DNA of 64,000 nucleotides, taken from Branchiostoma lanceolatum (lineage: Eukaryota; Chordata; Leptocardii; Amphioxiformes; Branchiostomatidae). The notes under the pieces are model-generated. The model did not search any database. It had not been told where the DNA came from and was given only the letters and a program-made list of their open reading frames with translations. The stretch lies in NCBI RefSeq assembly GCF_035083965.1, contig NC_089736.1, positions 263,001 through 327,000 on the forward strand, read 5' to 3'. Of this stretch, positions 4,664 through 55,641 are shown piece after piece (the first letter of the stretch is position 1; every line of letters starts with the position of its first letter). The position numbers and the translations under genes were made by a program.

Positions 4664-5505
4664 ACAGTAGTTAGAATGTAGCCTCTAACAGACTTCTCTG
4701 GCTCGGTAGTAGTTAGAATGTAGCCTTGAACAGACTTCTCAAGCTCGGTAGTAGTTAGAATGTAGCCTCTAACAGACTTCTCAAGCGCTGTAGTAGTTAG
4801 AATGTAGCCTCTAACAGACTTCTCAAGCTCGGTAGTAGTTAGAATGTAGCCTCTAACAGACTTCTCAAGCGCTGTAGTAGTTAGAATGTAGCCTCTAACA
4901 GACTTCTCAAGCTCGGTAGTAGTTAGAATGTAGCCTCTAACAGACTTCTCAAGCGCTGTAGTAGTTAGAATGTAGCCTCTAACAGACTTCTCAAGCTCTG
5001 TAGTAGTTAGAATGTAGCCTCTAACAGACTTCTCAAGCTCTGTAGTAGTTAGAATGTAGCCTCTAACAGACTTCTCAAGCTCTGTAGTAGTTAGAATGTA
5101 GCCTCTAACAGACTTCTCTGTCTCTGTAGTAGTTAGAATGTAGCCTCTAACAGACTTCTCAAGCTCTGTAGTAGTTAGAACGTAGCCTCTAACAGACTTC
5201 TCTGTCTCTGTAGTAGTTAGAATGTAGCCTCTAACAGACTACTCGGGCTCATATGGTAGTTAGAATGCAGCCTCTAGCAGACTTCTCGGGCTCGGTAGTA
5301 GTTAGAATGTAGCCTCTAGCAGACTTCTGGGGCTCAGTATTAGTTAGAACGTAGCCTCTAACAGACTTATTGGGCTCAGTAGTAGTTAGAATGCAGCCTC
5401 TAACAGACTACTCGGGCTCATATGGTAGTTAGAATGCAGCCTCTAACAGACTACTTTGGCTCTGTATTAGTTAGAATGCAGCCTCTAAAAGACCTTTCGA
5501 GTTGC
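4664..5505. repeat. 42-bp minisatellite, about 20 copies
   Basis: The unit reads TAGTAGTTAGAATGTAGCCT followed by CTAACAGACTTCTCAAGCTC and two variable bases. The left half is nearly uniform, with an alternation of CTCGG and CGCTG variants (a two-unit higher-order pattern). The right end is degraded. It lies 0.4 kb upstream of lectin gene 1. Confidence 0.9.
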
Positions 5506-25200: not shown

Positions 25201-26156
25201 GTGTATGTTTAAGCGTGACTTGGCTGAAAACGCCAGCCGTAGCGAAACCGGATTGCACTACTACTTAAGTTATATGAAAATAAAAGCACACTCGGTTGAA
25301 AATAACTGCTTTACATTTATCTTTTATAAAGAACTAAAAACTATTTCAGAATCTGCTGAATCTGGCCTGTCACATTTAGGGCGTCATCACGAGGCACTGG
25401 TGTTTGACAACAGCAGAACTATGGCAGGAAAATAAACATGGAGGGGAAAGAAAAGGTTGGTGAAACTCTTCTTCTTCTAATCTTCTTCGAATAGTTGGGG
25501 AAAATCTATTTATGTGAAGTTCACAGTCTGAAAGAACGACTAAAGCATGGCTGCATCATGCAAGTAGGATAATGCACCATGAGGCTTAGTAACGGTAGAA
25601 ATCAGAGAGGCTGATGAACATGTTAATCTTCCAACTTCTTCTAACAATTTGAAAAGAAAAACAGTTTTGTTTGCGAGTAACCTCTACCTTCCCGCAGATC
25701 ACGTAGTAGATGACCTGTTTGATGTTTAGACTCGGCACATAGATGACACTAACAATATTATTGTAACATAAACTCCTGAACAGAATCATAAAAGGCCTGA
25801 AATGTTAATAATAATAATAATATCAGGTGTATTTGCAGCCAGTGCCACAGGCAGGTACCCAATGTGTAGGGTAATGAGGCTGTTTAACGTGTTCGAGGCA
25901 CCTCCTCGAGCACGGGACCCCCGTTTTACGTCCCTCCCGGAAGACGATTTCGTGGAAAGCTTCGTGAGGCTACAGCAACCCGGAAAAGAATCGATGAGTA
26001 GTAATTCTAGCAAGTCTGGTCTACAAGATTATGAGTAACACCTTACATGTATAGAGCAAGGAGGTTTTATCCTCCTTGTATAGAGTAAGACGTAAGAAGC
26101 CGGATCCGAAGATACAAATATTGTTTTTTAGTTAACCGGACGGTTCTGTTCCACAG

Positions 26157-27754
26157 GAGCTGAGAAAAGCCGCCGGGCGAGGTGACGAGGTCAGAGTTCA
26201 GCAGCTCCTAGCCGAGGGAGTCGATGTCAATGCTGCCAACGACGCCGTGAGTTAACATGTCTGTCTGTTGTTTGCTCAATTTCATGAAATCATTTTTAAG
26301 CACTAAGTTTTTTCCCTTTTTGATATTGAAGTGCGCGGTGTAACAGATGAACTTGATCTTTACACCAGATCAACACTCTGTGCTAAGTAATGTTGCACAA
26401 TTTGCATATAAGTGCACCTGATAAACATCCTCATGTCATCCACGTTCTTACACTATACGGGAAGTTCCTGGAAGGCTGAGAAGGCCACGGTCGGTACAAG
26501 TTCATGTCTCAACCTTGATCTTACATGGAGTTTCTTTACTGTCTCTGTACAGGGATATACTGCTCTTCACGATGCAGCACAGAACGGCCACACGGGAACT
26601 GTACAAGCTTTACTCAAAGCTGGGGCGACGGTCGACGCACGAACCATGCAGCACATGGGGGTAACTTTGCTGTTTACTTAGGCCTGTCTAACTGTCAAGT
26701 AATGAGTTTGTATATACTGTTGGAGCAACAAGGCATAGAAAACGATAATTGCGCTGATACCTCGGTCTGTTTCGTTGTCCTGAAATCAGACACTCGTTTG
26801 TTCATGTAGAACCGGACGCCTCTCCACCTTGCTGCCGAGAACGGCCACACAGGACCTGTACAAGCTTTGCTGGCAGCTGGAGCGGACATTAATGCACGAG
26901 ACATCATGGTCAGTTGCTTAATGTAGAGCCATGTTGAGTGACCTAGAACCTGCTCAGATGTGTGGCATGACATGGTCCTGCAAACGGATGAACTGATAAA
27001 ATGTGCTCAGGCACACTATGTACATTATTATTACCGGGTTCCTAACCATGTTCCTAACCATATTTCTAGATGAAATCGTTTTGTTATCAATCACAGTGAA
27101 CCCTCTCATGGTTAGTGTGTAAATCCTGCATCTGGCACTTTGTTTTATCTACAGAAAAAGACTCCCCTTCATCATGCGGCAAATGATGGACATCCCGAGT
27201 GTGTTAAAGTACTGCTGAAGGCTGGAGCCAACACCGTTATTGGAGACGAGGTAAATGTTTTTGTTTTTAATCGTCTCATGTCAAATGTCAATCGATGGTG
27301 CCGAGAGAGCGGATATGATTTGTAACGTTTCTAACTCACAGACTTTATTCTGATGTTGTACATGTCGTTCTACATGTATCTTAGACAATCTTCTTGAGAA
27401 TAGGATACACCAACACGGAGTAAACATTATCATCTAACACAAACTCCCTTTACACAACCTAAAGCATCTAAAGGACAGATGTTGATGACTATGTAATAAT
27501 GACGTTTAGTTTCAGTAAAAGTTTCATAGGTTGTGTTGGTTTTACCTACAGCATAAGAAGACAGCGGAGGATCTTGGAGTACAAGAGGATGTGCTGAAGG
27601 TGTTCCAGTTCTTCAAAGTAAGCCCAAAATACACCCGTTAGTAAAACACGTGGCCCGTGACTAAACCTTGTGCCGCATTTGATTTATAATCGTCACTTGT
27701 AAAATTCTAAACGTTGAAATTCTGTTGTTCCTGCAGGGTAAGACATCGGCGTAG
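26157..27754 (+). CDS. Ankyrin-repeat exons: separate small protein or N-terminus of the LRR-ROC-COR gene
   Basis: Coding blocks 26157-26246, 26553-26660, 26810-26908, 27155-27250, 27552-27617, all phase 0, so each exon is about one ankyrin repeat (GYTALHDAAQNGHTG, RTPLHLAAENGHTG, KTPLHHAANDGHPE motifs, then a capping helix KTAEDLGVQEDVLKVFQFFK). A sixth block starting at 27737 reads Gly-Lys-Thr-Ser-Ala then TAG at 27752-27754. The transcript may end there, or only the first base of that block may be used, linking to the LRR exon in frame. No certain start was found. One candidate is ATG at 25438, which encodes MEGKEK and is followed by AAG/GTTGGT, a usable but weak donor in the right phase. 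Ankyrin repeats bind proteins; the partner is unknown. Confidence 0.75.
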
Positions 27755-28266
27755 ACGGTGGTCGAAGCAGCTTAACGTCGGTGAGATGTATTTTTCCATT
27801 GAACACTGGTGGTCTCTGATAGAAGAGTACCGGTTCTATCATTTTCACTTCAATGTCGTCCTGTCTTTTTATCACAAAGGTTTTGTTTAATTCTGTGACT
27901 TGTAAATTTGCTTTTTCTACCACATAGAAGTGACTTAAGAATGATTATAAAAAATATATATAAGATTATGTGCATACAACTCATATGCATATAGATATCA
28001 GCGATGTTTATCATGCAGGCCATCAATAACGATTACGTTTTGTCATATGTTGCATTATATTTCTACATGTAAATGACATGAAGCTAGAGTCATATTTTAC
28101 ATTCAGTGCGTTCTGTGTTGCTTTATCAAGTACAAGTAAGTCGATTCTTTACTTTGAGAGTTATTCATGTAAGTTGCAATGTATCTACATTGAACCACGT
28201 TTTAAGACTTTACTGCAACAGATCCCATAATAAGACTTCAAAGCGATTTATTTTCACCTTTTTCAG
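27755..28266. other. Gap between ankyrin and LRR exons
   Basis: AT-rich. An ATG at 27786 opens a frame that could join the LRR exon in phase 1 through AAAG/GTTTTG (junction 27879/27880), but that donor is weak. No AATAAA was found that would end the ankyrin transcript here. Confidence 0.4.
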
Positions 28267-31200
28267 CCCTCCAACCTAAAGTGGTGGATAACCTGTTCAC
28301 TATCGACCTCAGCGGCAAAGGTCTGACCTCCGTCCCAGCCGAGGTGTTTGACGCCAAAAATGTTGAACGCCTTGTCCTGTCTGACAACAGGCTGACGAGC
28401 ATATCCGAGGAGATAGGCCAACTACAGAAGCTTCGTGACCTTAAACTTGACAACAACCTGCTGACACAACTGCCCCAGGCAATCACTACTCTACCTGACC
28501 TACAGCACATTGACCTGTCGGCCAATAGATTAAAAGAAATACCAGATGTAGTTTGTTCACTTCTTCAACTCAAGACCTTGTACGTAGGAAGCAACCCCCT
28601 CAAGTGTCTCCCTGACAAGATATCTCAGCTCACAGGACTGAGGAGGCTTGAAATAGATAGTTGTCGATTCGATGAGTTCCCCAGACAGGTGCTGCAGCTG
28701 GAGGGTCTAGTGAGGCTGCGCATGGCGAACTGGGCTGGGGAGGGCAAACCTTCACCTGTACCTGAAGACATCGGCAGGCTGAAGAATCTACATACTTTAT
28801 ATCTGGATGATAGTGGCTTGGATTCACTACCGGACGGTGTTGGGGAACTGGGGCAGTTGACGCACTTAGACATTTCTCGGAACAGATTCACATCAGTTCC
28901 TGAACAGATCATGAACCTGCCAAACATTGGGGAGCTTATATTGCATAGCAACAGAATCTCCCATCTTCCCCTGACTCTGAACCGATTGGCCCGACTGTAT
29001 ATCATAGCAGTCTACGGAAACCCCCTGGCATACCCTCCTCCTGATGTCTGTAAGAAAGGCGCAGCCGCCATCATGGACTTCCTGAGAAGAGAGGTGAAGG
29101 AAAAGGAAGGTATGTAGGAACGAAAAATGGGGGAGGAGCAGAATTCACAAAATTCCATTTTCATTTGGAAACTGATTACTGTTGAATGCCTTATTAAAGG
29201 TGTAGTAAAATGACTTTGGTATTATTGGATCTGATGACAGAATGTTTCATATGATTGTTATTTTTGTATAATTTTGACCTATTTCTTTATAGATTGTTAT
29301 TCATTATAATACTTATTATGTTTACAACTCAAAATTCACTTTGTACTTCCTATTATTTTCATTTGTTTCATTAGGATTTATGTTGCAATTCCAATTTCTT
29401 CTTTCGTTAATTTTTCTTAGTTTTGATTATATATAATCTTGTAAGAATTCCATTTGTGTAGTTTAGGGGAGGCCCCCGAAAAGCCTTATAGGCTTCTGGC
29501 CTCCCCTGCATGTATTCTTTGCTCTATTTATCTTTGTTCTATATTGTACATATGCAAATAAACAATAAACAAAAACCTCTCAACCCAAAACCATGTTTAC
29601 TGTAGGTGATTTGTTGCTTTCCTGACATAACTTAGTAAATTGCTGTAAGGTTCTGCATTTTATTGATGACTCGGCCTTTTATTGATGACCATCTGATTGG
29701 TGCTAGCTTAAGCTACAAAAAATGCATAAAACTTGAAATATTTACGATCACCTTTAATCATTAGGATGTCTTCTTTCTTACAGACAAAGAGCTGGGGAAA
29801 CTGTTCTTCCGCTTCTCACAGAAAGTGACGCAACGACCTGAGGTGGAAGCTCTGGCCACAGTAGCAGGACTTAAACCAAACGAGAGAACAAGCATCCTGG
29901 TAAACATTTCAGTCTCATGATAGAGAAGTCTCGAAGATCAATGATGTCCAAAATAAAACAATAACATTTGTCAAACTTAACAGCAGTGCACGTAACCTAT
30001 AATCTAAATCAGCAGCGTACGTAACCTGTTATTAAAATCATATTGATCATTGATTGATTTATTGATTAAATTCTTTGACTGCATACAATTAGAATGTCCA
30101 GCAATACAGCTTTGGCCGATGTTCTGCTTTTAGGGTAAGGACAAGGCGAATCCGAGTTACCAGGCCCATAACGTGCTGTTGAAGTGGATAGAGAAAGACC
30201 GAGAAGCGTCCATGGACAAACTTCAGCAGGAGCTGAGTGATATCGGCATGGGTGGACTGGCAGAGGAGGTTGGCAGGATCAAGGTATGTGGAAACACCAA
30301 CGCACAAGTACCATAATACTGTGTGAACATTACAGCCAAGTAGACTGCGGGACGCGCTCTTATTTTGCGAGCAATTTTTTTTTTTCTTCTTCAGTAATTT
30401 CAAACCTCTATATTCCAGGCCGAGCGACTCAAGCGGCCGGCAGATGCATCGGGCGGGCCTCCAGCCAAGCGGCAGGCAGCCGGAGGGTTTTCTCGTGTTG
30501 GGCATCAGGAGGAACAGCAGACCAAAGGGAAGATCAGACAGGCAGAACAGAAACTTGTACGGATGCAGCATCACAGCGAGACTCAGCAGGCCGCGTCAAC
30601 CCAGGTTGCAGAGCAGAGACCAAGAGGTCAAGTTGGGTTTCCTCGTGGTGAGTAACTCAAATGAAAGAACGAAATATACATAGATTAGCAGAGCATATAT
30701 GTTTACATCCTACAAAGATAATGACTTTTTCACGCCGTAACAATGACTATTTTTATCCAGCATCAGTGCCGACTGAAGTGGAGATTGGGGGTCCAGAGAT
30801 GGTGGTTCTCTATGAGAAGGCCTGTAAAGAGGGGACCACTGAAGTCTACCACATCAGGCTGATCCTGGTAGGGAACCACGGGAATGGGAAAACCAGTTTG
30901 ACAAACAGCTTCCTTCAACTAAAGTTCAACAAAGATGAAAAAAGCACAGATGGCATTGTTATCATTCCATGTCTCATGACTGGGAAGGAACAGTGGCAAA
31001 TTACTGAAGGTATATGTGATTTTTTTATATCTGCATACCTGCCTCAGTGCCCAGCCTAGACGGAAGCAAACAAACAAATCTATACGCGGTCCCTTTGTCA
31101 AATTTGACCTACTTCCCGTTGAATAAAGTCAAGATCAAAAAGAGGGCAGCACGAGGGCAATGATTGCAGGGGGCGATTTTACAGCGCGTTGCTGGTAAGG

Positions 31201-34200
31201 ACATATATGAATCAACACATAATAAACAAGAGTCCGAAGACCCAAAATCTCCATGAAATTTGTTTTGATATATGATGTGTTTTATTTGCCCCAGTTGTTT
31301 GTTTTTGCCGCTGGTTGTTTTATTTTATGTGCCAAAGGGTATCCACACACAGGTTTAGTAGTGTTCCCATTTGTGGTTTGACCACCAGCTGTTGGGACCT
31401 TGGGAATAGTTGACCTACATAAGAGACCAAAAGCCCACAAAAGAGTAGATATTTCTCATTATTTATGCAAATTCAGTCCGAATTTGCATAATTACCACTT
31501 CAGTTTGTACATCTCTGTCCAACCCACCTGCGTACCAAATATCATGAAAATCTGTCGCTCCTATCTTCAGTTATTCTCCTTTGAATATTTTTACAAATAC
31601 GCCATTGCAGTTCCAATGACACACACCAGGGGGCCCAAAATCGACCTTGACGTTTCTCCTCCCAGCACCTACCCACATATCAAATATCATTACAATCCAT
31701 CTACACGTTCTATAGTTATGCTGATTTTACGCATCCGGTGACACATACGTACACACACGGTGACACAAACATACACACACGCGCACACACGCGCAAACAC
31801 ACTAACTTTGCATGATTTGCACTTCAGTGTGTACATCTCTGTCCAACCTACCTGCGTACCAAATAACATGAAAATCTGTTGTTCCTTTCTTCAGTTATTC
31901 CCCTTTAGAACATTTTTACAAATAGGCCATTGTAGTTCCAGGGACACAAACCAGGGGGCCCAAAATCGACCTTGACCATTCTCCTCCCAGCGCATACCCA
32001 CTTACCAAATATCATTACAATCCATCTACACGTTCTACAGCTATGCTGACTTAAAGCATCCATCGACACACATGCAAACGATTTACCTCCTTACTTATGC
32101 AAATTCGGTCTCATTTGCATAGTTTGCACTTAAGTGTGTACATCTTGGTCTAACCTACCTGTGTACCAAATAACATGACGATCTGTCGATCCACTCTTCA
32201 GTTCTTCTACATTGAAGATTTTTACAAATACGCCATTGCAGTTCCAGTCACACAGCCAGGGGGCCCAAAATCGACCTTGACCTTCCTCCTCTTAACACCC
32301 ACCCACAAATAAAAAATCATTACAATCCATGTACAGGTTCTACAGTTATGGTGACTTTAAGCATCCGGTGACACATACATACATACAAACACCAAACGCA
32401 AGCAAAACAGTATATCCATGAAAAAGCCTTTTTTCATGGAGATAACAACATCTTACAAATTGAGTTATACATTTAATAAGTCTAATTCTGAAGGCAAGGT
32501 AATAATCCGACCAAATTGAAGCTTCGGTTTAAAAGGTGCTACATTCAACTTAAAACATTTAATGATGCATAGGAGTGACAGTACATACATTTATTTGTTG
32601 ATGTTAGGAACAAATGATCAACAATTTGCTCACGCTGTTGGCATGGAGATGAAGAAGATGAAAGAAAAGGAAAAGCCAAGTGTACCCAGGAAGAAAACAG
32701 GAGACAATAAGCCAAAGGAAGCCCCGGAAGTCAAACCTGTCCCAGCCAGCTCTAGAGGTACAGAATTGATTACAGAAATTCCTTGAAACTTTCCGTACTG
32801 CTGTCTTTTCTGTAAGTTGAGTACCAAACATGTACTACTAGTACATGGAATCTAATGTGTAGAATTTTTCTGCTCTCAACAGATACAGATCACACAGACC
32901 ACGTAGATGTACCGACGGTTACAAAACCACCCGATGAACATGCTGCTAGGAAACAGAAGACGACAGAAACGCCAGCTAGCCGGTCAGAGGACTACGCACT
33001 TGCCACCCAATTGGCTCTCGGCAAAGACGACCTGTCCAATCTCGTCGGATCTAAGAAACATCCCGCCATGTCCATCTGGGACTTTGCCGGACACGATGTC
33101 TACTACAGCAGCCACCACGTCTTCTACAGCCATTACGCCATCTTCATCCTTACTTTGAATCTCACCAAAGCTCTCAGCGAACCGCTTGAACATTGGGACG
33201 GTAGCTGTGCAGAAGCCCTTCAACTCAGAACAGAAGCAGGTAATTACAGAAACTCTGTTTTAATTCTAATCATTGGTGTCTCTATGCAAAAGGTTCAACT
33301 TTAATCAAAGGTTTAAACTAAGGGATAATAATGTTTCCCAAGTCTTTAAGTTAGCAGCCTGGTTTTAAAATACAGATGAAGTACGGTAGATAATTAGAAA
33401 CTTCAAAGAGCAAATTCTGAACTTTCTATCACTTATTTAGATGTAGTAGACTACCATCTGGAGGCCATTCAAGCACACACCATGCCAAGCAGGTCTGTTG
33501 GTGGTCTGGGGGAAAACCAAGAACAGGGGCCTCCCGTGATTGTGGTGGGCACACGAAAGGACCAAGTAGGAAAGGTTTGTGTGATTGCCAACTCATATTT
33601 TTGCAAACTTGTTTGACTGATTGACTTATTGATTTATTGATTGATCGATCATTGATTGATATACACTTTGGTAGTGTAGGAGTGATTTAACAAATGAAAT
33701 AACTTCATCTTATCCTTCGTATTTTAGAAAAGGATCAAGGATTTCTTCGCCAAACTCAAACATCATTTCAGGGGAAAGGCCATTGGCAAACACGTCCATG
33801 ACAGGTACTTTGCCATTGACAACACCAAGCGTGATCCGGAAGATCCAGAGTTGTCAGATCTGAGAGATTGCATCCTCAAGATTGCCCAACAGCAAAACCA
33901 CATGGGCAGGAGAATCCCAATCAGTTGGCTGGAGCTGAAGTCCAAGCTCATGGAAATGGAGAAGCAGGGCAGGAAGTACTGCAGCCTCCAGGATGTGATG
34001 GCTGCTACTGACAGCTCTCGCGTACCGGAGGGATTCACGCCAGAGGAAAATGCTGTCATCATCCTGAGGTTCTTCCATCTGTGTGGAGACATCCTCTTCT
34101 TCAACACCCCAGCACTCCGCAAGTTTGTCGTCCTGGACCCGCAGTGGTTTATCGATGTCGAGAAAACCATCATCACCATCCCCCAGTTTCGGGATCCTGC

Positions 34201-37023
34201 AGTAAAAGGCGAATGGGAGCGGTTGGAGTCTACAGGAGTGTTAGAAGATAGCCTAATCGAGAACGTGTGGAGGAACAGACAAGAGGAGCTCAAGTGCGAC
34301 CTTATTGCTCACAAAGACGAGCTGCTGAAGATGATGGAGCAGTTTGACCTGGTCCTGCGGTGCAGCACTGAGAGTGAAGATAAAGCAGGTGGAGTCACGC
34401 CAAGTTCAGAGAGCACCACTTACTTTGTTCCTTCCCTCCTCACCACGGTCAAGGACAGAGAAATACTGTACCCAAGCGGCACAGAATGCAGCAAGCCTAT
34501 TTATGTCGTATTTGATGACAAGTTCTTCCCTGTCGGCGTGTACCACCGCCTCGTCATCGCCAGCATGCGTCGATACAACAAGCGGAAGCCACTGGCATAT
34601 GCACGCTGTGCGAAATTTATCACAAGCAACCCAAGGCAGACCTTCGTCATCACCAAGAAAGATCACTACCTGAAGGTGGAGCTGTTGTCATCAGAGAAGG
34701 AAGAGTCTGCCCGCTTCAGCCATGGTCCGGGTGTCCGGAAAGGTCTGGATGAAGACCTGCGGGAGATCATTAACAAGTGGATTCCGGGCATAAGGTACAA
34801 GTGGTGTCTCCAGTGTTGCTGTGCCTGCCACAGTGAGAGGGAGCTGGATACCAGCAGCTTCATTCCAATCACAAGTGTCACAGAATGGTTCATGGATGGA
34901 GAAGTTGTTTGTGAAGCTTACTCACCTGCCACAACCACCATTCAAGATATCGGCCTGGCACAGTGGTTCCAAAGTCCGTAAGTAGCTGAATATGTATATA
35001 TTTTGTATTGCAAAAGGATGACTAAAACATTTTTCAGTCTGTAGTTATTATCATCACGACATCAGAAGATGTAAACACTCAAGACTGCCAGGGAAGGTTA
35101 GAATATGTTATATATTTGGAAATACTTCATCTTATATAGGGTTTGTGATAGTTCTTTTGCACAAACTTTCCAGATTTTAGGTTTCTCAGTGCCATGCAAG
35201 TTCATAGTTTCATATTGCCATCGGACATTAGACAGAGTGACATTAGGCAAATATGCATGTCTTTTGCTCCTTGTTCATCTGCCCTTAGCCTGATGAATGA
35301 TGTTTTTGTCTGTAGGCATTCTGGTCAAAGCAGCAGAGCCATGCACCAAGGATCAACTGCATCAGCGGAAACAGATGGACATGATATCTTATGTACGTAA
35401 CTTACACATCCATTCATGTCCATTGATATCATTTGGAAAAAGTTGTAATGCAAGTGTTCACCCTGTAGCAACAAATCATGTACATATTTTTGTAACTTTA
35501 AAAAGTTTGATGACTTATGTATGACGACTAATGTTACATTTTTTTGGTTTTATTCAAGCTGTTGCAGAATATTTCTCCACTGTTGTTGAAACGAAGCCAC
35601 CATGGAAGGATCTTGGGAGAACCCTGGGCCTGTCCGATGCTGACATCCAGCAAATCAGACAGAAGCACCTAGATCACGCGTCATCATCATCGCCGCATGA
35701 TGAGACATGTGCACAGTGCTGTTTGGCAGTGCTAGAAGTGTGGCTACATCTGTCTGGTTCAATCGCATCTGTAGAAGGACTGAAGAACGCGCTGGCCACA
35801 GTAGGACTGGGGGACATGGCGGAGAAGTTGAACACAATGTAAGTTCAAAGATTTCATCTTTCATTGATCAGCAAATATCAACTAGTTAATTGATTACTTG
35901 ATTGGTGCTTTTCGTGCTTCCCTCATGTAGCTGATAACAGTGGATGCAAATCTTATTCTCATAATATTCTAAATGTACAGACCACAAACTAAACAGTTAC
36001 AGATGTGCAGTTGTGGTCAACATCTGTCTACTATTTTGTCCCATAGGATCGTCTTTAAGAATATACATGTATTGGGGCGCTTTTACTTCATAGGAACATA
36101 CATCTTAAATGTTTCTACTTTTCAGAAAACAGATCATGGGTACAAAGCTCCTGGAGTTGCAAAGTCAAGTGACAAGCATCGTGCGCGCTGACTTCCCCAA
36201 CCTGGACTTTGTCCAAGCTGTGAGCAAGAAAGCAGACAAGGAGAGGGAACAGCTGAACAGGAAGACACTCCGTGAGGAACTCTTCTCCAGTAGTTTTAAC
36301 TATTGTCTTTACTCAGATGTCTATGATGTGATAAAGGACAGGAAGCGATCAGTGTGCCGTATTAACTGGCCTGGGAGTTCTGGAACTGGGTTCCTGTTGA
36401 GTAAGAGAAAGATTCTCACATGTTTCCATGTGTTTAAAGACTTGCACGCTGCCACACTAAGGTTCACTGATTTAAGTTTGTTCACCGCAACGTTCTTTGT
36501 GTCTTCAACTCAAGAATACAAAGTTAGCTTTCCTGCAACCACTCTCAAATGTCATAGCGAAGACCTAGACTATGCCATTCTGCAATTGTCCGTTGATGAT
36601 GACATAGCAAGTGTCATTGACAGCCTGCCTTATCTTGGCCGCTATATCTCGGAAAGTGTAGACGACAGAAACATGGTGGTTGTTGTTGGTCATCCCTACG
36701 GTGGGAGTAAGATTGTTGATTTCTGTCCCATCGCTGGGTTGGACCAAAGTTATATCATCCATGTTCGCTTTGGGAACCCTGAGTTTCCCCAAGAAGACCC
36801 ACGCAAACCCCTGTACCACACAGGTGTCATGTTCCACGGGTCCTCAGGCTCCCCAGGGTTTGATACGCATGGTAATGTGGTGCTCATGCACACCCGGGGA
36901 TTCTTCCCCGACAGGAGCAGGCAAAGCCTCGTTGAGCGCGGGGTGCGTTTGTCTGCCATCAGAGAACATGCGCGTAATGATCCGAACCTGGCACCTGAGG
37001 TCTTTAGTGAGATCTTTCCCTAG
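28267..37023 (+). CDS. LRR - Death - ROC GTPase - COR - Death - trypsin-like protease protein
   Basis: Exons 28267-29109, 29784-29899, 30134-30283, 30419-30647, 30761-31009, 32608-32757, 32883-33239, 33441-33574, 33728-34977, 35316-35392, 35559-35838, 36126-37023; about 1577 aa, entered in phase 1 from an unresolved 5' exon. About ten LRRs (1-281) end in GNPLAYPPPDVC. Death-type helical domain at 282-370. ROC GTPase at about 447-743: P-loop GNHGNGKTS, switch WDFAGHD, G4-like GTRKD, with a charged Lys/Glu-rich insertion. COR at 743-1160 (LDPQWFIDV). Second Death-type domain at 1186-1279. The last exon is a chymotrypsin-fold protease with an apparent intact triad: His in LTCFHVF, Asp in DLDYAIL, Ser in GSSGSPG. 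LRR-ROC-COR resembles MFHAS1/LRRK and Death links it to DAPK/PIDD-type signalling; the protease end is unusual. No signal peptide or TM was seen. An intracellular immune or death sensor is inferred. Confidence 0.85.
29465..29575 (+). mobile_element. Retroelement 3' end with hairpin and AATAAA repeats
   Basis: Strong hairpin (AGGGGAGGCC...GGCCTCCCCT with an inner AAGCC/GGCTT stem, 29465-29507), then AAATAAACAATAAAC. In the intron after the LRR exon. Confidence 0.5.
31440..32370 (+). repeat. Three tandem copies of a roughly 310-bp repeat
   Basis: CCTGCGTACCAAATA(A/T)CATGA, CAGGGGGCCCAAAATCGACC and ATCATTACAATCCATCTACA recur three times in order. CA-rich microsatellites separate the units. The array fills the intron between the two first ROC exons. 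Confidence 0.8.
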
Positions 37024-38019
37024 AGTTAATAATTAAAGACAGTTTCCATTTGGCCCACAAACTGTCAGCTGAAACTACTGACATTTTGTAATGACTAAGT
37101 ATGCTTACTGTGTGTTTCAACTTTGCACCAACCATACGTCCATGATGACCTTAACAGTGATTGATACATTTATATGTCATTGAGGTTTCACTAAACCAGC
37201 TTACACAAAGGTTGAAACCAGGAGGAACATGATAGAACCAATTGTACGTTTGAGGGACTGGTTGAATTTGATATTTTGTAGAATGATGATTGAAAAGCTT
37301 AATGGCTGATAATCATAACCTTGTTGAACTTTTAATATACGCAGATGAAGCTTCAGGTTGATCTGCCCATACACGATTGTACATTTTCTCAAGCTGAAAT
37401 TATTTCTGTATAGATGGTGTGAGGTAATAATGTTCTACACTGTACATTTACCCAGGAAGAATTGTCTGAACAATTGATGTACTTGACTTTTGTGATAGGC
37501 ATAAGGTTGATGATTTAGAAATCCATCTAACCAATTTTGATATGAAGGAATATATGTAGTTTATTCCTGTACTACATTCTAATTATTACTAATTAACTCT
37601 AAGCTAGGGAGTGAAGATTTGTTTTTTGATTTCCTGTCTGTATTTTGTGTGCATTTTCCCGATTCCGCAATCATTACCATCGGTTGACTGCAGCGCAATA
37701 TAAGTGTATGTACAAATGTAACGCTGCGTTGCCAAAGATCCTCAGTGCTGCTATTGCTGTGTTGTCGCAAAGCAAAGAAGGCAAAGGGGTGAAGTCTGCC
37801 ATCTATGATTGCCTTGTTTGTCAACAACAAAAACTTTGACATAAACTTAAATCTATCCCTGTTGCCTTTGCCTCGACCAAGTGATGACAGACATATATAT
37901 CAAAACCTACTGTGATAGAAATATATATATTTACTGCATCCTGTATTGTAGTACTTTGGGGATAAAAAGACCAACATCCAGGTATTGACATTGTCACATA
38001 ACGGCCATGGAAAGACTAG

Positions 38020-40640: not shown

Positions 40641-43600
40641 GCCGTTGTTGACAAACAGTTCGGTGATGTCCGGACCCCTCACCGCATTTTTCACACGCAA
40701 AACCTGCAGCCAGAAACAGGGAAACAATCCATGCATCAAGTCATATCTGAGACTGATGTATCGTTTTATGGTACGCTGTATTCTTTGAAGATACAACGAT
40801 TTATATTGAAATATACAAAGGTAGAGAAATAAAATAAATTTGCTTGGCATTTGCTTCTGTAAGAACACTGAACATCAACAGAATAAAGTACAAATCACAC
40901 CTCTATATGTATAATGTATGTGCACCCAGTCTTCATGGCTTCTAGTGTACCACGGGTGTTTTTTCTGTAACAGTTTCTTTAAACTCACCTGTGCCCAGGG
41001 TGGGTCGTAGTGTATCATAATTGTACTGAACTGAACCTTGGGTGGGTTGTAGTCTATCATGGGTGTACTTAACTGTGTCCTGGGTGGGTTGTAGTGTATC
41101 ATGCTGGGTGTACTAACCTGTGCCCCAGGTGGGTCCCATGGGTTGTAGTGTATCATGGGTGTACTAACCTGTGCCCCGGGTGGGTCCCATGGGTTGTAGT
41201 GTATCATGCCGGGTGTACTAACCTGTGCCCCAGGTGGGTCCCATGGGTCGTAGTGTATTATGGGTGTTTTTCCGATGACTGGGTGCAGGCCGATGTACAG
41301 GTCCCCAGTCTGTGGATCCACCTCGATGTTATCCACAAAACTGTGCAGAGGAAGTGACTGGGAACAGAAAGGCAACAAGGTCAAGGTTAAAGGTGAAAGT
41401 TGAACCCAAACCCATGGAGGAGGGTGAAGGTTTGTGTACAATCTTTGACATTGGTTGCATAATTGTTATGAATATCTAATAAAAGCCTATAAAGTTAACT
41501 TTCACTAACCACCACATGACCTCTCTATGACATTTTACTACCTGACCTTGACCCCACTGACATTTGACCCAAGTGACCTCTATCTGACCCTTACTGACCT
41601 CTATCTGCACCAGGCTGTTGTTTGCGAACCTCCTGAAGATCCGGAGCTCTTCTGTGAACCCTGCTCCAACATACAGGTACCTGGAAAGGTAACACACAAT
41701 CAGGCCTATTTTCTCTAATTCTCAGACTTTCAGTGAAGATTTAGTAAGAGTTCAAGATGAAAACAGAAGTCTGGGAGGAAAGCTTGAAGCTGACTCTGTC
41801 CATCCCCTGAAGCTGTGTGTACCAAGGTACAGACTTTCTCCTCAGACTTTACTTTCATCTGGATCTTCCAGTTCAGCAATATTCACAGAAACAAGAACCA
41901 ACAAACGAACAACAAAAAACACATCACAAAAGCATTTAATTGCTCTTTCCTTGACAACGAGTGGAGTTTTGGAATTTGGGTAGGTCTCATTTTTGTGTTG
42001 GGAATTACAGTTCAACTTTGAAGCAGAAACAGTGAATATGTTTCTTGCAACACAGATGAACGTCATGTGGCCCAAACTAACAAAACTTTGTGTATTCTGA
42101 TACAGGTTTTCCCCTCAGACTCTCAAAGTCACCAGTTCAGCATTACTACATCAAATATGAGAACCAAAATTCTGACTTGTTGTGGCCCAAACTGACCTCC
42201 TGTCCGGTGACATGTTGACTCCGTTGGGAAACACGAGACCCTCCGCGACCGGCCGCGCCTGCGTGCCGTTGTAGAACACGACATTACCAAACGGCAGCAG
42301 GAGGTACGTCTCAAGTTTCCGTGCGAGCGTTGATCCTCTCGCGCCGTGTGAGACGTCGTTGGACAGGTAGAAGGAGTCGGGACCCAGGGCCAACAAGTCG
42401 TTACCACTGGGAAACAGTAAACCAATCAATCAATCAGTCAATTATCTATCAATCAATCAATCTCAAGGAAAAACACTTGAAAGGGCCAAAAAGTTGTTAC
42501 CACTAGGGGAACAGAGTTTGGTTTTCAAGATAGAAAAAGGTTAAATCCCTTTGGTGTGTATGGGAAGGGCTAGAAAACCTTACATAAATATACCCTGCTA
42601 CAGAAACAGCCAGGAAACTTGCCGGCCTTTGTGCCACTGGGCACTACAAGGTGAAACAGCTTTCGGTGTATAGGGGCAGTGCTCACCTCCATTTCTAAAG
42701 CCCTTGGGCCACACAGGTCACTACAGTAGGGGGCTAGTCTGGATGTCTAGCCTTCATCGACGTACCTGTAAATTAACTCGTCCCTGATGGTCTCCTGATG
42801 TTCCAGTGTTTCCGTGGCGACGTCGTAGGTAAACACCTCTACCTGGTCCTTCCGCCTCTGGTGACTGATCACCAGGACACTAATCCTACCTGATTGTGTA
42901 AACAAACAAACAAACAAAGTTGTAAACAACAGCAACTTGCACTTGTCTCTTGTGACAATGTCCATGTTCTAAAAGAGATAGACATTGAATCGGACATCCC
43001 TAGACATGTGTGTGTGTGTGTGAATGTGTATGTGTGTTTTTGTACATGCGTGTATGTGTGTGTGTGTGTATGTGTGTTTTAAATAAATAAATGTGTGTGT
43101 TTCTGTGGCACTGCAGTTCCTGTGTGTTCTGCCAGGGTGTGTGTGTGTTTGTGTCCGTCCTTACCCGACAGCGGATCGGTCCACACGCTGAGGCCATGGG
43201 GGTTGAAGCTCTCCCGGTCAAACTCCTCGCTGAAGTTCAGCTCCCTCACACCCTTCTCAGGGTCACTGAAGTTAAAGGTCAGGATGCGACCTCTGGCTTC
43301 TGACCTGCCACGAGGGAACCCTGGGAGCCAGAGACCCTGAAGGAGAAAAATATGTCAAGTAAGCCCATCAATATCTACATGTAGCATCTATGTACTACAT
43401 TAGATTCAGCAGACTTGCTTTGCTTTACAGCAAATTCAGGTGCAAGTTGCGCTATACGCAGAATGCACTGATTATGCTCTGTATTAGATTTGAGTGGTCT
43501 GACTATGAATTACGTTTGAGGATGCGCTCATGTTGAACTGTATCCTTCCGCTAAAAGACTTACCGATGATATAAAGGCCAGGCCGTTGGGCAACGTTGTG

Positions 43601-47747: not shown

Positions 47748-50700
47748 TTACTTGACAGAGACTGCGCAGAAGGTCCTATCCTTGCCCATGTCGTTCTCGA
47801 CTTCGATCTCGTATTTTCCCGCGTCTTCTTCCGTCGCGCCCTGGATCCTAAACAAAAAGACATGATAGATAAATAAGATTGTTATTAAGTGGACTTCATG
47901 ATCATGTAACGCCAAAATTCGTCGATTTCAAATCGCCACCGCCATGCTGGTATCCGATAGTTCGAGGATGGATCCAACATGGCGACAGCTAGGTCATGTC
48001 GGAATACAGAAAATGATTTTATTGAAAGAAAGAAATTATTCATAACCAGGTACTCTTAAAATATGCAGAGGCAAGAAACAGACATTCCGGTGTTAAATTG
48101 AATACAAGCATTTAAGGCCTTTTAAACTTTGCGTGTCCTCAGTGCTATAACGCCCCCTAACGGAAACCAAAGCCAGTGCAGTAATGTGACGAACCTTAGG
48201 ATGGAGTACGTGTCCGTGTCCTCGTAGCTGTAGCGCCCCCTAACGGAAACCAATGCCAGTGCAGTAACGTGACGTACCTTAGGATGGAGTACGTGTCCGT
48301 GTCCTCGTAGCTGTAGCGTCCGCCCTCGTTGATCTCCTTCTTCTTGTGCTTCCAGATGACGTCAGCTTCCGGGTCACCCTCGATCTCCACCTGGGGTCAA
48401 ATCAAGGCCAAGGGTCAGCCAATCAGAGATCGATTTTCAGGACGCGTAATGAATTTCGAAATTTTGATGACTTGCCTTTGACAAAATATATTCATTCACA
48501 GTCCCTCCTTAGGGAACCTGTACCTACCCGCATGGTGATGGTTTCTCCCTTCTTGGCCGTGACGTTCTCTGGGGGCTTCATGACCTTGGCTGGAACTGAA
48601 GGACAATTAAAGAAAGGTCAGACATATTTGCACCATGTTTAAGAGACCTCCATGGAACAGCAACATTGTGTCCAATACAATAATCCGCTTCACGGGTTGA
48701 ACTGCTCGTGCGCAGTGAAATGCATTGTTAGTAACATGTCAAATGTGAACGCTCTGAGATATATATATATCATAACATGTCTAGACAAGAGCTGCTCAAA
48801 AGTTAGGATACATCACCTTTGACCCCGCGCATGAGCAGTGAAACCACGAACTGGCTTATTGTCGTGCAATAAAGATTAATAGTTTGATTCGTTGATGAAG
48901 CGATCCAGGTAATAAGATACGCCAAAAAAAGTTTTGAAAAATTTATCCAGTTGCTTGAGTAACTATTTTTGGCGTATAATAGTTTGATCGATCGATCGAT
49001 CAATTGCTTAATTGATTGATTGATTGATTGATGTATTGATTGATTTGTGACTCACTATCGACGATGAGCCGTGCGGAGTCGAACGCCTCCCCGTGGCTGT
49101 TGTTGGCTTTGCAGGTGTACTGCCCCACGTCCTCCCGACTCACGTTCTGGATCGTCAGCGTCGTGCCGTCTGAAAAAAGCGCGGGAAAAGTCAGAGTCAT
49201 GCCGTCTGAAAAATCGTTTGACTGTCTAAATATTGTGATAGGTGCAAAAGTATGACAGAAAAAGTATGTGGTTTCTGTATGTTTGTAATTGCGAGCTTTT
49301 GGCAATTTGGGTTTGAAAAGTTAGAGTCGTGCCGTCTGAAAATAAAAACGCGGGAATAAAACTCAATAATGGAAGAAAAAACGTTTGACGGTCTACATTC
49401 TGTGGGTCGTTTAAAAGTATGACAGATTAAGTATGTAATTTTTGTACCGAAGGCGAGTTTTTTACAATGTGGGTTGAAAACATTAGGAAAAGTTAGAGTC
49501 GTGCCATCTAAAAAAGCGCAAGTCAGATGCCACGATGGAAAAAAAGAACAGTTTGACGGTTTGAATTCTGTGATCTGTGCAAAAGTATGTAATTTGAAAA
49601 TGTGTGTAATTTGTGTACCGCATACGAGGTTATGACAATTTGGTTTTGAAATTTGTTTCTTTATTCACTTGGTCGGTTGTTTGTTCGTTTGTTTATTTGT
49701 TCGTTTGTTTGCACGTACCCTTGCTGTCGAATCCGATCTGAAACTTGGGTCCCTCCTTGATGAGCTCGCCGTCCTTGTACCACGTGATGACGGGGTCCGG
49801 GATGCCCCACACGCGGCAGAAGAAGCTGGTGGCGCTGCCCTCGTACCCGAACATGTCCTTCAGCTCCTGGGGACGAGAAGGAAAAAAATGGTTTACATGG
49901 GAAAGAACATGTCCTTCAGCTCCTGGGAACGAGAACACAAATACACGGTTTATATTGTAACGAACATGACCTTCAGATCCCATTGGAACGAGAACCATAG
50001 TTTTGAGAGCAACATGACCTTCAGCTCCCGGGGACGAGAAGGAAAAAATACACGGTTTACATGGAAGCGAACATGTCTTGCAGCTCCTGGGGACGAGTAC
50101 AAAAAAACACGGTTTACATGGAAGCGAACATGACCTTCAGCTCCTGGGGACGAGTACAAAAAAACACGGTTTACATGGCAGCAAACATGACCTTTAGCTC
50201 ATGGGGACGAGAATAAAAAATCCACGGTTTACATGACTTTCAGAACCTATGGGAACGAGGACCAGCGATTCCATAGTTTCCGTAGCAACAAACATGTCCC
50301 TCAGCTCCTGGGAACAAGGACAAGATGTTCTGTGCTTCACATGGCACCGAACATGACCTTCATCTTATCTGAACGAGAGCAAAGGTTTATTACGTCGTTT
50401 CAAAATCGATAAACATTACCTTCAGCTGCTATGGGAAGCGAGAACAAAAGATTCCATAGTTTTCATATCAGCAAACAACGAGAACTAAACAATCATTTTC
50501 TGTTCTTAAAGTTGAAATTTCAAATGCCATAATTATGCACTGATATAGTTGATGACCGGCCTTACCTGTGTGAAGCTGGGCAGGGACTTCTCCATGAGCT
50601 CCTTGCGGGACTTGTGCGAGCGGAAGGCCGCCTGGATGCGCGTGGCGGCCCGGACCACGATCGGGTCCTTCACGTCAACCCCCTCAAACGGGTTCTTGGC

Positions 50701-51316
50701 CTCTTCCTCCTTCTTCGCCGCGGGCTGCGTGGAAAAGGGGGAGGGGGTGGTGGAGAGGGGGTGGGTAATGGGCACACCAGTTAACATCAATGTAGAAACA
50801 TGGGAGGGAAGGGGTATGGAGAGGGGGTGGGTAATGGGCACACCAGTTAACATCAATGTAGAAACATGGGAGGGAAGGGGTATGGAAAAGGGGGAGGGGT
50901 GGTGGAGAGGGGGTGGGTAATGGGCACACCAGTTAACATCAATGTAGAAACATGGGAGGGAAGGGGTATGGAGAGGGGGTGGGCAATGGGCATTTCAGTT
51001 AACATCAGTGTACAAACATGGCTCAAACATATACATTGATGGAGCAAAAGAGTTCTTTTTTATCACAAACAGGGCGTAGCATAACAACCAACGTTTCGGT
51101 GACCGCACTGCAGCTAGGCGTCGCTGCTAACAATGCAGTCCCAAACGTTTAAACGCAAAGTATCGTCACATAGATAAACAACCATAATGATACTGAAAAA
51201 GGACATCAGTTGAAATAACACTACATGGATAAACATGGCTCGTTACAAGATATCTTCACAAAAACGACATGCTTAAATTTAAAGAAAGCCTTTCGTTGTC
51301 CCACCTGTTTCGGCAT
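47748..51316 (-). CDS. IQ motif plus two I-set Ig domains, SPEGNB-like, intron-rich copy
   Basis: Model: complement(47748-47847, 48278-48390, 48528-48595, 49056-49169, 49719-49866, 50566-50724, 51305-51316), 237 aa, the same size and layout as vertebrate SPEG neighbour protein. The first coding exon is only 12 bases (Met-Pro-Lys-Gln). An acidic/Lys N-terminus leads to an IQ-type calmodulin-binding helix (AATRIQAAFRSHKSRKE). I-set domain 1 follows (FFCRVWGIPDPVITWYKDG...DVGQYTCKANNSHG), then domain 2 (GDPEADVIWKHKKKEI...DAGKYEIEVENDMG) ending at TAA. No signal peptide, so it is intracellular; a sarcomere or muscle role is inferred from related I-set proteins. Tandem copies of its exon ends lie in several introns. 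Confidence 0.85.
48125..48278 (-). repeat. Tandem copy of a SPEGNB-like exon end
   Basis: AGGATGGAGTACGTGTCCGT plus the next bases occur at the true exon end (48278 upward) and again at about 48197, each beside the same CGCCCCCTAACGGAAACCA block. The extra copy carries GTTCGTC instead of the GTACGTC donor. Confidence 0.8.
49180..49520 (-). repeat. Degenerate tandem copies of an exon start with its acceptor
   Basis: The exon start at 49169 (TTTTTTCAG/ACGGCACGAC on the minus strand) recurs at about 49198-49210, 49330 and 49503, each with adjacent GTTTGACGGTCT-like sequence. Confidence 0.7.
49867..50350 (-). repeat. Array of exon-start copies upstream of a SPEGNB-like exon
   Basis: AACATGTCCTTCAGCTCCTG plus GGGACGAGAA (the exon start and acceptor of the exon at 49719-49866) repeats about eight times at roughly 55-60-base spacing, with ACACGGTTTACATGG linkers. 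Confidence 0.85.
50735..51000. repeat. G-rich minisatellite of about 65-100 bp units
   Basis: GTGGGTAATGGGCACACCAG plus TTAACATCAATGTAGAAACA repeats three to four times directly next to the acceptor of the exon at 50566-50724. Confidence 0.85.
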
Positions 51317-54225
51317 GGCGACTGTTTGTACGCTGCTGCACTCTCCTCAGCAATCGGAAGGTGGCGCTGCGATGTTAGCTTCTCCGGCCTCTCCTGAGGA
51401 TGAAGAAGATAACCTTTTAGTTTTCTTTCTTTCCTTCCTTCTTTCTTTCTATTTCTATCTCTTATGCTACCGTATAAGGTAAGGGTTATTTCAATAGAGC
51501 GAAATATGAAAGGCATGAAGCGACAGTAGGGTAAGAAAGTTGGTAACCTTACCGCAGGTGAGAGGACAGGTGAGTCAGACAGTGAAGATGTACAGGTGAG
51601 AGGAAGTCTTCAGGTGAGGAAATGGAGATTGCAAGGAGGAGACAAGATATGCTGCAGTACTGCATGTGATCATTAAGAGGCGCTGCTGTACGGTGGCTAG
51701 TGAGTCGGGAATAAACCATGTTGGCGCTTTTTCGATTTTATGAAGAAGTTGAAATGTATTCTTAACATGCAGAGTTGGTTACTTTCATTTTTAGTAAAGC
51801 TGTTGCAATGTAAATTTTTCTTTACAAAACGGCAATGATCAACATAACTTGTACAGTGACTCCCAACACATGTTTTGAGATTTAGTAGGCTCTGTTGCCT
51901 GTACTGTAATAAAACTAAAACTTTGCGTTTTCTCAAAGAATTTGCTGTTTTATCACGATTCTTTAGGAAGCTATAGTGAATGTACCGCTATATGATAATA
52001 TCATGCATTCCTAACTATGGTCAATCTCGAATCCAGGGCACTTTGGACAAGTCAAGAGATGACCCTGGGTACGAGATTGAAATTGGCCTGACTAACATTA
52101 ACCCTTTCCTCAACAATACACTGCGAACAAAGAATCATACAGAACCACTTCCTTTTATGGGATATTCCCTTCTGTTCGAGTTGTTTTTTCTCACAAGGGC
52201 AGTACGGAAAAGTTTCCGCTACTTCCCGTCATGCTTTGCCCTTGACCTTACCCCGCCAATTTTCAAAATGGCGGACATTAGTGCCGGGTACTTCCTACGG
52301 TAAGTTAGTCTGATTTGCTGGCGTTCTCAGTTCATCTGAGGCAGCCATGTTTTGCTCGAAACTATGATCATGATGATGATGATGTTTGCATGTGTGATAT
52401 ACTGACCAGATAGACATATAGCACACACAACTACACTGTGAATGTCAACAACATAGTTATGTACACAACGGAACCAAAGCAGTGCGATCTTTACTCTGTG
52501 TTGCATTTTGTGCTTATAATGAGTAATTAGATAGTAGAGTGAGTTTAGGGCCGAGAGCGTTCGAAGTAACACAACAAGTCATGTGGAAGGGCTGATATAT
52601 CGTTTTTGTTGTTGTAAATCATGATCGGCTGACAGAAAAAATGTTATAGTCAGGGTCAACATGGGGTCATCTACAACCTCGTGACGCGCTCCTGGCGTCA
52701 TGATGACGTAACGATTCATCATAAACTTTCCCATACATGCAATAGTCTTTCATCCCAGTGACATATAAGTCCAGAGAATGTGGACGACACCTATATCAAA
52801 ATGTGTCCATACGAAAACATAGTAGAATAGATATAACGGTACTAATGTTAGAAATGGTACGATAGACGCGAGCATTTCAAGTGTCAACATGGTAGACTGG
52901 TGGGTTGATTTTGTAGGTTATCATTCAATATTTCCTTGTCTTATATAAATGCATTATTGACGTGGTGCATGTTTGTGAATTCAGTTGAGCATAGTGATCC
53001 CTCATTTATTCGCCCATCCATTCATCCCTCCTTCATTCCTTCACTGACAGTTATGGTTCCTTCACTCATTCATTCATTCCTCCGTTTATTCATTCTTTTA
53101 TTCATCCATTCCTCCATTCATTCATTCATTCATTCATTGAATACTTCCTCCACTCATTCATGTTTATTCATCCTTCCATGATGCATTCACAACAGTGACT
53201 ATTACAATGATAACGAATGCTGATGGTAACGTAAGGTTGCTGCCAGCTGCAAACATTTGTGGATAATAAATCACAAACGTTGCTATATAACTACTCGTGA
53301 GAAACTTGTGCACAACACTCATACCTGACAATTTACATTAAGTTAGCAAGCTTGAGTAGATCATCATCTCAATAAATAGAAGCACATTTTCATTGAACAC
53401 TCCTAACAAAATAGTATTGTGAATATATATGTTGCTATATATCATTGTGAATATATATAATGAACAAAGAATGGACGCTGTCTTCGGTTTCTAGCTAGAA
53501 ACTTTATTACTTGAGAATGTGGCGCCACAACGGAATTACGTACATAATTTTTTTTTTCATACAGAAAGAAAAACAGTGGGGGAATTCTGTGAAAACCTTA
53601 TAGATTTGTTCTTTTTTTATTTATTTATCTTTCATCGTTTTTAACAAGTTTCTTACACACTGAAGCTATTCTAGATAGGCTTAGTCCAAAGAAGCATAGA
53701 ATTACAGACAGAAGTAAACACTTTTATTTCAACAGAAGTGAAAGAACAATGTAGTGAAAAAAATGGTTTCAGCGACACACCATATTCTACGGTAAACCGG
53801 AGAAGACACTCACTGCGATACGTGGTTCTACGGTAAACCGGAGAGGACATTCACTGCGTTACGTGGTTCTACGGTGGACCCGTGATGTCTAGCCAGGGCA
53901 GTTTGTTTGTGTTCAGATATTTACAGGCAGCTCGTTTCTTGTTCTAGCCCAGCCTTTCAATTCTCCCCCGCTGCCGGCTGACTCCGTGTACAGCATGCAT
54001 CTCCATCAATTTCCACCAGGCGGCGCTTCTCTCTCAGTACTCGCCAAGGAGTAACGACTAAATCAGCCCGCCCGGTTGTCAATTTTTTATTATCCTCTCG
54101 GCTAAAATCTCATTGTGCCCTCTAACTGCCAACCTGTGGTCCAAAAAGACATGCCCTTTTTAATTACTTAACAACGAAAAGTGTACATTTACAGAGACGT
54201 TCTGCTAGCCGCCATCTTGCCGACC
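51317..54225. other. Region between the two SPEGNB-like genes, no gene
   Basis: Probable upstream region of the 47.7-51.3 kb gene, with a YY1-like CAAAATGGCGGAC at about 52265, TTCA-type microsatellites at 52990-53165 and a short duplicated GGTTCTACGGTAAACCGGAG at about 53785-53880. No supported exon. Confidence 0.45.
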
Positions 54226-55641
54226 TTAATTCACCTTGACGGTGCAATAAGCGCGGGCCTTGCCAAGGTCGTTCACAATCTCGATCTCGTATTTGCCGGC
54301 ATCTCCTGCCTGTGCCTTCTCCACCCTGCAGGAAGAAGAAGAAACAGAGTTTGTAAACAAGTTGTACGTACAAATATTTTTGAACTCCATGCAACAGATT
54401 TCAGCATTTGCCCTTCTCCCATGCCACGTACAGACAACAATATACCCATTTTTACACCTGAATGGAGTGAGGAAAGTCGTGTTAAATGCCTTTCTCAAGG
54501 GCACATCATCGGTAGCGTCAGGGGATTCAAACCGAGGACCAATAGGTTCTGGGCCGAACACCCTTTCGTTACGCCACACGACGCCACAAACGATATTTTG
54601 GCCGTCACCAAAACAAACAAACATACACAAAAACAAACAAACAAACAAACAAGCAGCCCACCTGAGGATGGAGTAGTCTGGGGAGTCCTCGTAGCTGAAG
54701 CGGCCTCCCTCGTCGATCTCCTTCTTGCCCTTCGTCCAGATGACGTCAGGCTCGGGCTCGCCCGCGATCTCGACCTTGATCTCGAAGTTGCCGCCGGCCT
54801 TGACCGTGATGTTGTCGGGCTGCTTCGTGCACTTGGCGGGAACTGGGGAATGAAAAACCAATGAGTAAATACACGAATAAATAGACAAATGGATTCATAA
54901 AGAAAGAATGGAAGCATGTACGGTTTTAGAATTTGAACAAATATTTTGGCCTTCTTCAGAGAAAATGACTCACTGACATTTAACACGTGACCGTGGGAAA
55001 ATGTTACGTCAGTTTTGGGTCTAAGGTATCCGGGTGGAGTCTGGCCTCTCCAACGCTATTGTATATTACTGCAGACTTTCAAAATGGTGGACTTTGCTGT
55101 TTTTCAAAAAGAAAGCATCCAGACTAGCGCTACCAAATCTGTATGGATACCGGTAATACTATGACATGTTGAAAGCCAGTACTGTACCTTCCAATGCCAG
55201 CCTGGCGCTGTCGAAGGCCTCTCCGAAGCTGTTGGTGGCCTGGCATGTGTAGGTGCCGACGTCATCGCCGTCAGCGTTCCTGATGATGAGGAAGGTGCCG
55301 TCCTTGTCGTCGAACTTGATCTCGTGCTTGGGGCCCTCCTTGACCTCCTGGCCGTCCTTGAACCACTTGATGACTGGGTCGGGGATTCCCCAGACGCGCG
55401 CGAAGAAGGTGACGGCGCTGCCCTCCATGACGAACATGTCCTTGAGGACCTGGGAGAACTTGGGGATGGACTTCTCCTTGAGCGCCATCCTGTTCTTGTG
55501 CATGCGGAAGGACGCCTGGATACGCGTGGCCGCGGAGATGACGATGGGGTCCTTCACGTCCACGCCCTCGAAGGGGTTGGCGGCCGCGGGGGGAGCCGCG
55601 GGCTTGGCCGCCGGCTTGGCTTCCGCTGGTGGCTTAGGCAT
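54226..55641 (-). CDS. IQ motif plus two I-set Ig domains, SPEGNB-like, intron-poor copy
   Basis: Model: complement(54226-54325, 54662-54842, 55188-55641), 244 aa. Paralog of the gene at 47.7-51.3 kb. The N-terminus is Ala/Pro/Lys-rich, then the shared NPFEGVDVKDPIV block, an IQ helix (AATRIQASFRMHKNR), I-set domain 1 (VWGIPDPVIKWFKDG...DVGTYTCQATNSFG) and domain 2 (GEPEPDVIWTKGKKEI...DAGKYEIEIVNDLG). Only the phase-1 intron before VPAK and the phase-2 intron after SILR remain; the other four of its sister are absent. The ATG lies 8 bases after a good acceptor (CTCCCCCTTAG/ACTGAACC), so there is a 5' UTR exon upstream. A tRNA-type SINE sits in its last intron. Confidence 0.88.
54390..54595 (-). 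mobile_element. tRNA-derived SINE in the last intron of the intron-poor SPEGNB-like gene
   Basis: Same head, B box (GGTTTGAATCC) and GTGCCCTTGAGAAAGGCATT hairpin as the SINE at 19990-20300, same orientation. Confidence 0.65.

Follow-up and report, generated by a model that had tools for sequence, protein, structure and literature searches.

A candidate lancelet ROCO protein with Death domains and a FAM111-type C-terminal protease

FAM111A is a human antiviral protease that acts inside the cell as a host restriction factor. It shares with FAM111B a C-terminal Trypsin_2 domain with an intact catalytic triad, and carries two ubiquitin-like domains, to which a PIP box was added in later mammals (PMC9798293). 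A second set of proteins relevant here, the ROCO family, has a Roc GTPase directly followed by COR. In bacteria, the conflict proteins of the LRR-AP-GTPase(ROC)-COR class have leucine-rich repeats (LRRs) at the N terminus, ROC-COR in the center, and a variable effector at the C terminus. For this last position, Kaur et al. (2021, PMC8195603) record at least 24 different domains, TIR, caspase, and trypsin among them. MFHAS1 (MASL1) is an LRR-ROC-COR protein without a kinase and has been described as LRR plus RocCOR alone, while DAPK1 (ROCO group 3) has a kinase before ROC, no LRR, and a Death domain at the C terminus, behind ROC-COR (PMC6337361). LRRK (ROCO group 2) carries its kinase C-terminal to COR. 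Here we describe a gene of the lancelet Branchiostoma lanceolatum whose predicted product seems to bring these parts together in the order LRR-Death-ROC-COR-Death-protease. It lies on the + strand, at 28267 to 37023 of a 64,000-nucleotide stretch (positions 263,001 to 327,000 of contig NC_089736.1, assembly GCF_035083965.1) that is called the window below; all coordinates refer to it.

Like MFHAS1, the window protein would be an LRR-ROC-COR protein without a kinase, but with further domains added. As in DAPK1, a Death domain follows ROC-COR, although LRRs are present and the kinase is not, and the C-terminal kinase of LRRK is also missing (a Pfam scan of the whole model gave neither a kinase nor a ubiquitin-like domain). 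In comparison with FAM111A, the closest solved sequence, a similar protease is preceded by LRR-Death-ROC-COR-Death instead of ubiquitin-like domains. The architecture follows the plan of the bacterial conflict proteins, but this likeness is one of architecture only, and flanking Death domains, present in the lancelet, go unmentioned in the available part of the description of that class (PMC8195603). The sequence-only reading of this DNA, made before the present analysis, had stated that no ROCO protein with a C-terminal chymotrypsin-fold protease was described; this fails for bacteria, since trypsin is one of the effectors listed by Kaur et al. (2021, PMC8195603). No animal ROCO-protease fusion that combines Death domains with a protease of FAM111 type was found in the open-license literature, among the matches listed. 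The window protein is most likely an intracellular sensor in which a GTP/dimerization switch licenses a protease dependent on dimerization, a variation on the known switch-plus-effector plan. ROCO proteins with diverse partners, CARD and Death domains among them, have been reported in a placozoan (PMC11378527), and domain shuffling in amphioxus immunity has been described in a work whose main text does not contain the words ROC or COR (PMC2575513). Regarding FAM111, the lancelet and coral members lack ubiquitin-like domains, an intact triad is stated for all the proteins of the family tree, and an original role outside replication has been raised as a possibility (PMC9798293). One of these members is a FAM111A-like protein of Branchiostoma belcheri (UniProt A0A6P4ZC58), also without ubiquitin-like domains, which may or may not be the orthologue of the window gene (PMC9798293).

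The protease is encoded by the last exon (36126 to 37023, including the stop; Trypsin_2, E value 4.6e-15). When this exon was compared with Protein Data Bank (PDB) chains, the only significant matches were to FAM111A (8s9l, 9.2e-10; 8s9k, 2.7e-9), and the next of the six matches listed had a value of 0.62. The residues of the FAM111A triad are H385, D439, and S541 (PMC10920703), and all three catalytic columns are occupied as expected in the predicted lancelet protein: His in TCFHV (codon 36427 to 36429), Asp in DLDYA (36568 to 36570), and Ser in GSSGSP (36844 to 36846). The nucleophile is the second Ser of the latter motif because the aligned column of 8s9k, an S541A mutant structure, reads Ala. 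The claim of an intact triad is thereby upheld for the translated sequence, which has both the Trypsin_2 domain and the H-D-S triad typical of FAM111 and, by these comparisons, is FAM111A-related, not a generic trypsin. The exon also matches models of anti-phage proteases (RT-Protease_XI, 2.6e-9; LmuA, 5.7e-8; Avs1b, 3.1e-5), although the Avs1b match reached 21 bits against an NCBIfam whole-protein cut-off of 1500. With LmuA, RT-Protease, and Avs1b the window protein would share, at moderate profile scores, a trypsin-like protease part in a defense context; their remaining parts are different. These matches point to immune settings for this type of protease, although the scores are moderate and the fold is widespread. 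No relatives of the protease were confirmed among 55 pattern matches in genome contigs (a collection without eukaryotes) or among 7 in viral contigs, and tblastn at an E value of 0.01 gave no match in phages.

The domains of the protein were detected with Pfam in the whole model (LRR_8, 3e-27; COR-A, 2.7e-17; Trypsin_2, 6.4e-14; Roc, 4e-13; Death, 5.9e-12 in two stretches) and several were tested again alone. The LRRs occupy the exon at 28267 to 29109. They are followed by a Death-like domain split between two exons (29784 to 29899 and 30134 to 30283) that, tested alone, remained below the cut-off (0.00097, 19.7 bits versus 22.6), and by a charged linker rich in Gln, Lys, and Arg (30419 to 30647). 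The Roc domain is divided by a long charged insert into two halves that each pass alone (29.5 and 30.7 bits, cut-off 27): the P-loop half, with GNHGNGKT (30761 to 31009), and a second stretch (32883 to 33239) that includes the end of the insert and switch II, the DxxG motif DFAGH. Between them lies a Lys/Pro-rich part of the insert (32608 to 32757), an exon whose acceptor and donor score lowest among the splice sites of the gene. The C-terminal part of Roc, with the G4 motif (VGTRKD), is at 33441 to 33574 and leads directly to the COR exon (33728 to 34977; COR-A alone, 66.7 bits, 2.7e-18), the order found in the ROCO family. After a short linker exon (35316 to 35392), the second Death domain (35559 to 35838) is well above the curated cut-off when tested alone (7.6e-10, 39.2 bits versus 22.6), and through it the protein qualifies as one with a Death domain. 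Accordingly, the proposed LRR-Death-ROC-COR-Death order stands for LRR, Roc, COR-A, and the second Death domain but is weaker for the first; the P-loop and DFAGH switch, said to be intact, were both found in the translation. A tblastn search of the window for paralogues (E value 1) returned, besides self-matches, one internal LRR match (0.021); a 31-residue match on the other strand (0.52) was taken as chance. In the intron that separates the P-loop half from the Lys/Pro-rich exon (31010 to 32607), some three stretches, each several hundred bases long, resemble one another by eye and look like a repeat element; each of them carries a near-copy of 'gtacatctctgtccaacc...tgcgtaccaaat'.

Rebuilt by hand from the sequence, the gene has 12 exons and introns that are all GT-AG (674, 234, 135, 113, 1598, 125, 201, 153, 338, 166, and 287 bp), giving 1,577 residues with a sole stop at 37021 to 37023. 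An in-phase chain of 12 exons had been proposed before and reappears here without internal stops, with the protease exon in the same predicted frame as the GTPase exons. This agreement of phases is a consistency check and not independent evidence, since the boundaries were picked with both splice signals and frame known. In a leave-one-out codon score, the model frame ranked best in 9 of the 12 exons, a weak backing because introns served as the background. What the earlier model had omitted is a first coding exon, which must be missing because the LRR exon begins in the middle of a codon and lacks a Met near its start. One candidate, not proven, is found at 28078 to 28135, starting with ATG and ending in a phase 1 donor (CAA/GTAAGT) that ranks in the top 0.8% of the 4,219 GT sites, followed by a 131-bp intron; an alternative donor after 28168 has a nearly equal score (top 0.9%), and both connect in phase to the LRR exon. 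For this ranking we used textbook splice-site weights and compared each site with all the GT or AG sites of the window. Upstream, on the same strand, a small ankyrin-repeat gene (25438 to 27754; 164 amino acids from hand-joined exons; Ank, 3.8e-30) ends ca. 0.5 kb before the LRR exon. We considered it as an LRRK1-like N terminus of the ROCO gene and rejected this, treating it as a separate gene because it has its own stop and its phase does not match. In principle, cag/G/GTAAGA at 27737 could be a one-base exon linking both in phase, which would yield an LRRK-like ANK-LRR order.

The junction between the second Death domain and the protease decides whether the product is a fusion. In the last intron, of only 287 bp, the donor ranks within the best 1.4% of the GT sites of the window and the acceptor within the best 1.1% of its AG sites, and this short length with good splice sites makes a fusion likelier than two genes. 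Besides, neither AATAAA nor ATTAAA occurs on the + strand from 32309 to 37031, and the first such poly(A) signal since 32308 is an ATTAAA just behind the stop (37032 to 37037). In our judgment, which is not a computed value, the fused protein very probably exists as at least one isoform.

We looked for bacterial counterparts in which a trypsin domain follows ROC-COR. A tblastn search with a shortened ROC-COR query recovered three plasmid records, including a ROCO gene of Haliscomenobacter hydrossis (L001:2678-5803), near brxC of a BREX system and a macro-domain gene, in keeping with a defense island, and another of Nostoc, immediately downstream of a MoxR gene. A pattern scan with the Haliscomenobacter protein confirmed at least 535 relatives among 581 pattern matches; the best 80 of these were analyzed together with loci gathered through genome searches and direct retrieval. 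COR-A was detected in all 12 genomes or records chosen because they had already yielded a locus, and in 30 of the 60 sampled from the family to which one cyanobacterial genome belongs. Compared by eye, the Trypsin_2 places in 9 genomes never fell in a reading frame that also held one of their 17 COR-A places. A GxSG-type motif turned up in one of the 82 open reading frames (ORFs) from the first 83 loci, located before G3, and a looser motif gave three matches, all before G3, in 136 ROCO-like frames of 137 loci (ROCO-like meaning P-loop plus G3, with LRR not part of the definition and some frames cut by the locus ends). Pfam was run on the 33 ROCO-like ORFs that extend more than 600 residues beyond G3; TIR_2 was found in 11 and CHAT in 9, and no trypsin family was among the 22 families listed. 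The other 99 of the 132 distinct ROCO-like ORFs were judged by motif alone. The switch-plus-effector plan is present in these bacterial frames, caspase-like CHAT tails included. The bacterial ROCO-trypsin protein rests on Kaur et al. (2021, PMC8195603), and the sequences that we examined neither reproduce nor exclude it.

The claim that a sensor, a switch, and an effector with an intact protease are laid out in a single gene is well supported by the predicted domain order, and the FAM111A relationship suggests a concrete mechanism, because FAM111A needs dimerization to cut its substrates. In FAM111A the dimer forms through a helix upstream of the catalytic core (PMC10920703). In the lancelet protein, the LRRs would sense a ligand, and ROC-COR, by homology with other ROCO proteins, would act as a GTP-driven monomer/dimer switch. 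The Death domains, of which the second is clear and the first weak, could recruit Death-domain partners or help oligomerization. By analogy with FAM111A, the C-terminal protease, its triad intact, would need a dimer to build the oxyanion hole, so that the ROC-COR switch might license cleavage of substrates; a self-cleavage ahead of the protease could also release it. A switch that changes dimerization and a protease that depends on it fit one idea, that of ligand-licensed proteolysis, with a likely role in cell-autonomous immunity or in the control of cell death. We are moderately inclined to the whole proposal, i.e., that a single gene specifies an intracellular protein of the order LRR-Death-ROC-COR-Death-protease in which a FAM111-type protease is gated by the switch and serves immunity or cell death.

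Several observations weigh against this proposal. FAM111A self-cleavage is independent of dimerization (PMC10920703), which weakens the self-cleavage part of the analogy. A search for the dimer helix, made with the stretch before the core extended into the first half of that domain, gave no FAM111A match, and a single-sequence structure prediction of the protease exon was poor (mean predicted local distance difference test [pLDDT], 31.8; predicted template modeling score [pTM], 0.20). In bacteria, GxSG[GSATN] was found after G3 in none of the 132 distinct ROCO-like ORFs (157 loci), and almost all the trypsin domains that occupy one effector position in bacteria have been reported inactive (PMC7159879). 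At the junction itself, retention of the last intron would stop the frame of the second Death domain at a TAA (35840 to 35842) just past the exon end, and the protease exon has a Met as its fourth full codon. Since this stop follows one exon and a Met lies near the start of the next, two products are possible. They might be two regulated isoforms of one gene, a short adaptor ending with the second Death domain, made by retaining the intron, and a long form with the protease; we regard this as rather unlikely. Retention would bring an immediate stop, and the intron holds two more acceptors of similar score (36047 and 36094), neither of which preserves the protease frame, but it has no poly(A) signal. 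Two adjoining genes seem very unlikely to us; the first would encode LRR-Death-ROC-COR-Death and end at the TAA at 35840, and the second would be a FAM111-like protease standing alone, with its start at the ATG of the last exon. The in-frame stop directly past the Death exon (ORF 35525 to 35842) and the ATG just inside the next one would suit them, and a lancelet FAM111A-like protein, which may or may not stand alone, is known by name (PMC9798293); however, a 3' end and a promoter would have to fit into 287 bp without AATAAA or ATTAAA, where a good donor ends the Death exon and a good 3' splice site immediately precedes the protease frame. A pseudo-enzyme or scaffold role of the protease, with signaling through the Death domains alone, is highly improbable, given an undamaged reading frame and His, Asp, and Ser at the catalytic columns of FAM111A.

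Other candidate coding features of the window, all on the - strand, were noted besides. C-type lectin exons are located at 1253 to 1924 (1.2e-16) and 7502 to 7954 (8.1e-23), and 6830 to 7267 resembles another by look alone; nearby exons have short coiled-coil-like repeats (STTVDALKRDQDDM, 2229 to 2822), and a coding-like frame at 4648 to 5238 is made of tandem repeats (SVRGYILTTTELEK repeated). An arylesterase (paraoxonase) exon is found at 42154 to 42429 (7e-15). The region from 49003 to 55644 contains I-set immunoglobulin exons (49003 to 49320, 7.4e-10; 55162 to 55644, 3.8e-26) and, by eye, IQ-like stretches, with the appearance of a titin- or kinase-like muscle gene.

If the fusion proposed here is real, it would be an animal ROCO protein with proteolysis as its probable output, and would connect the GTPase class of LRRK2 and MFHAS1 with the LRR-ROC-COR conflict proteins of bacteria as well as with FAM111A. 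Tentatively, and with the balance somewhat against it, the bacterial plan of an LRR sensor, a ROC-COR switch, and a C-terminal protease may have been kept or re-invented in an animal, with Death domains added. In that case, the FAM111 family would include members wired directly to a sensor-switch module, which would provide a model for the on-demand activation of FAM111-type proteases. In the fused protein, the step from switch to effector, in which the GTP state or dimerization turns the protease on, would be testable within one polypeptide.
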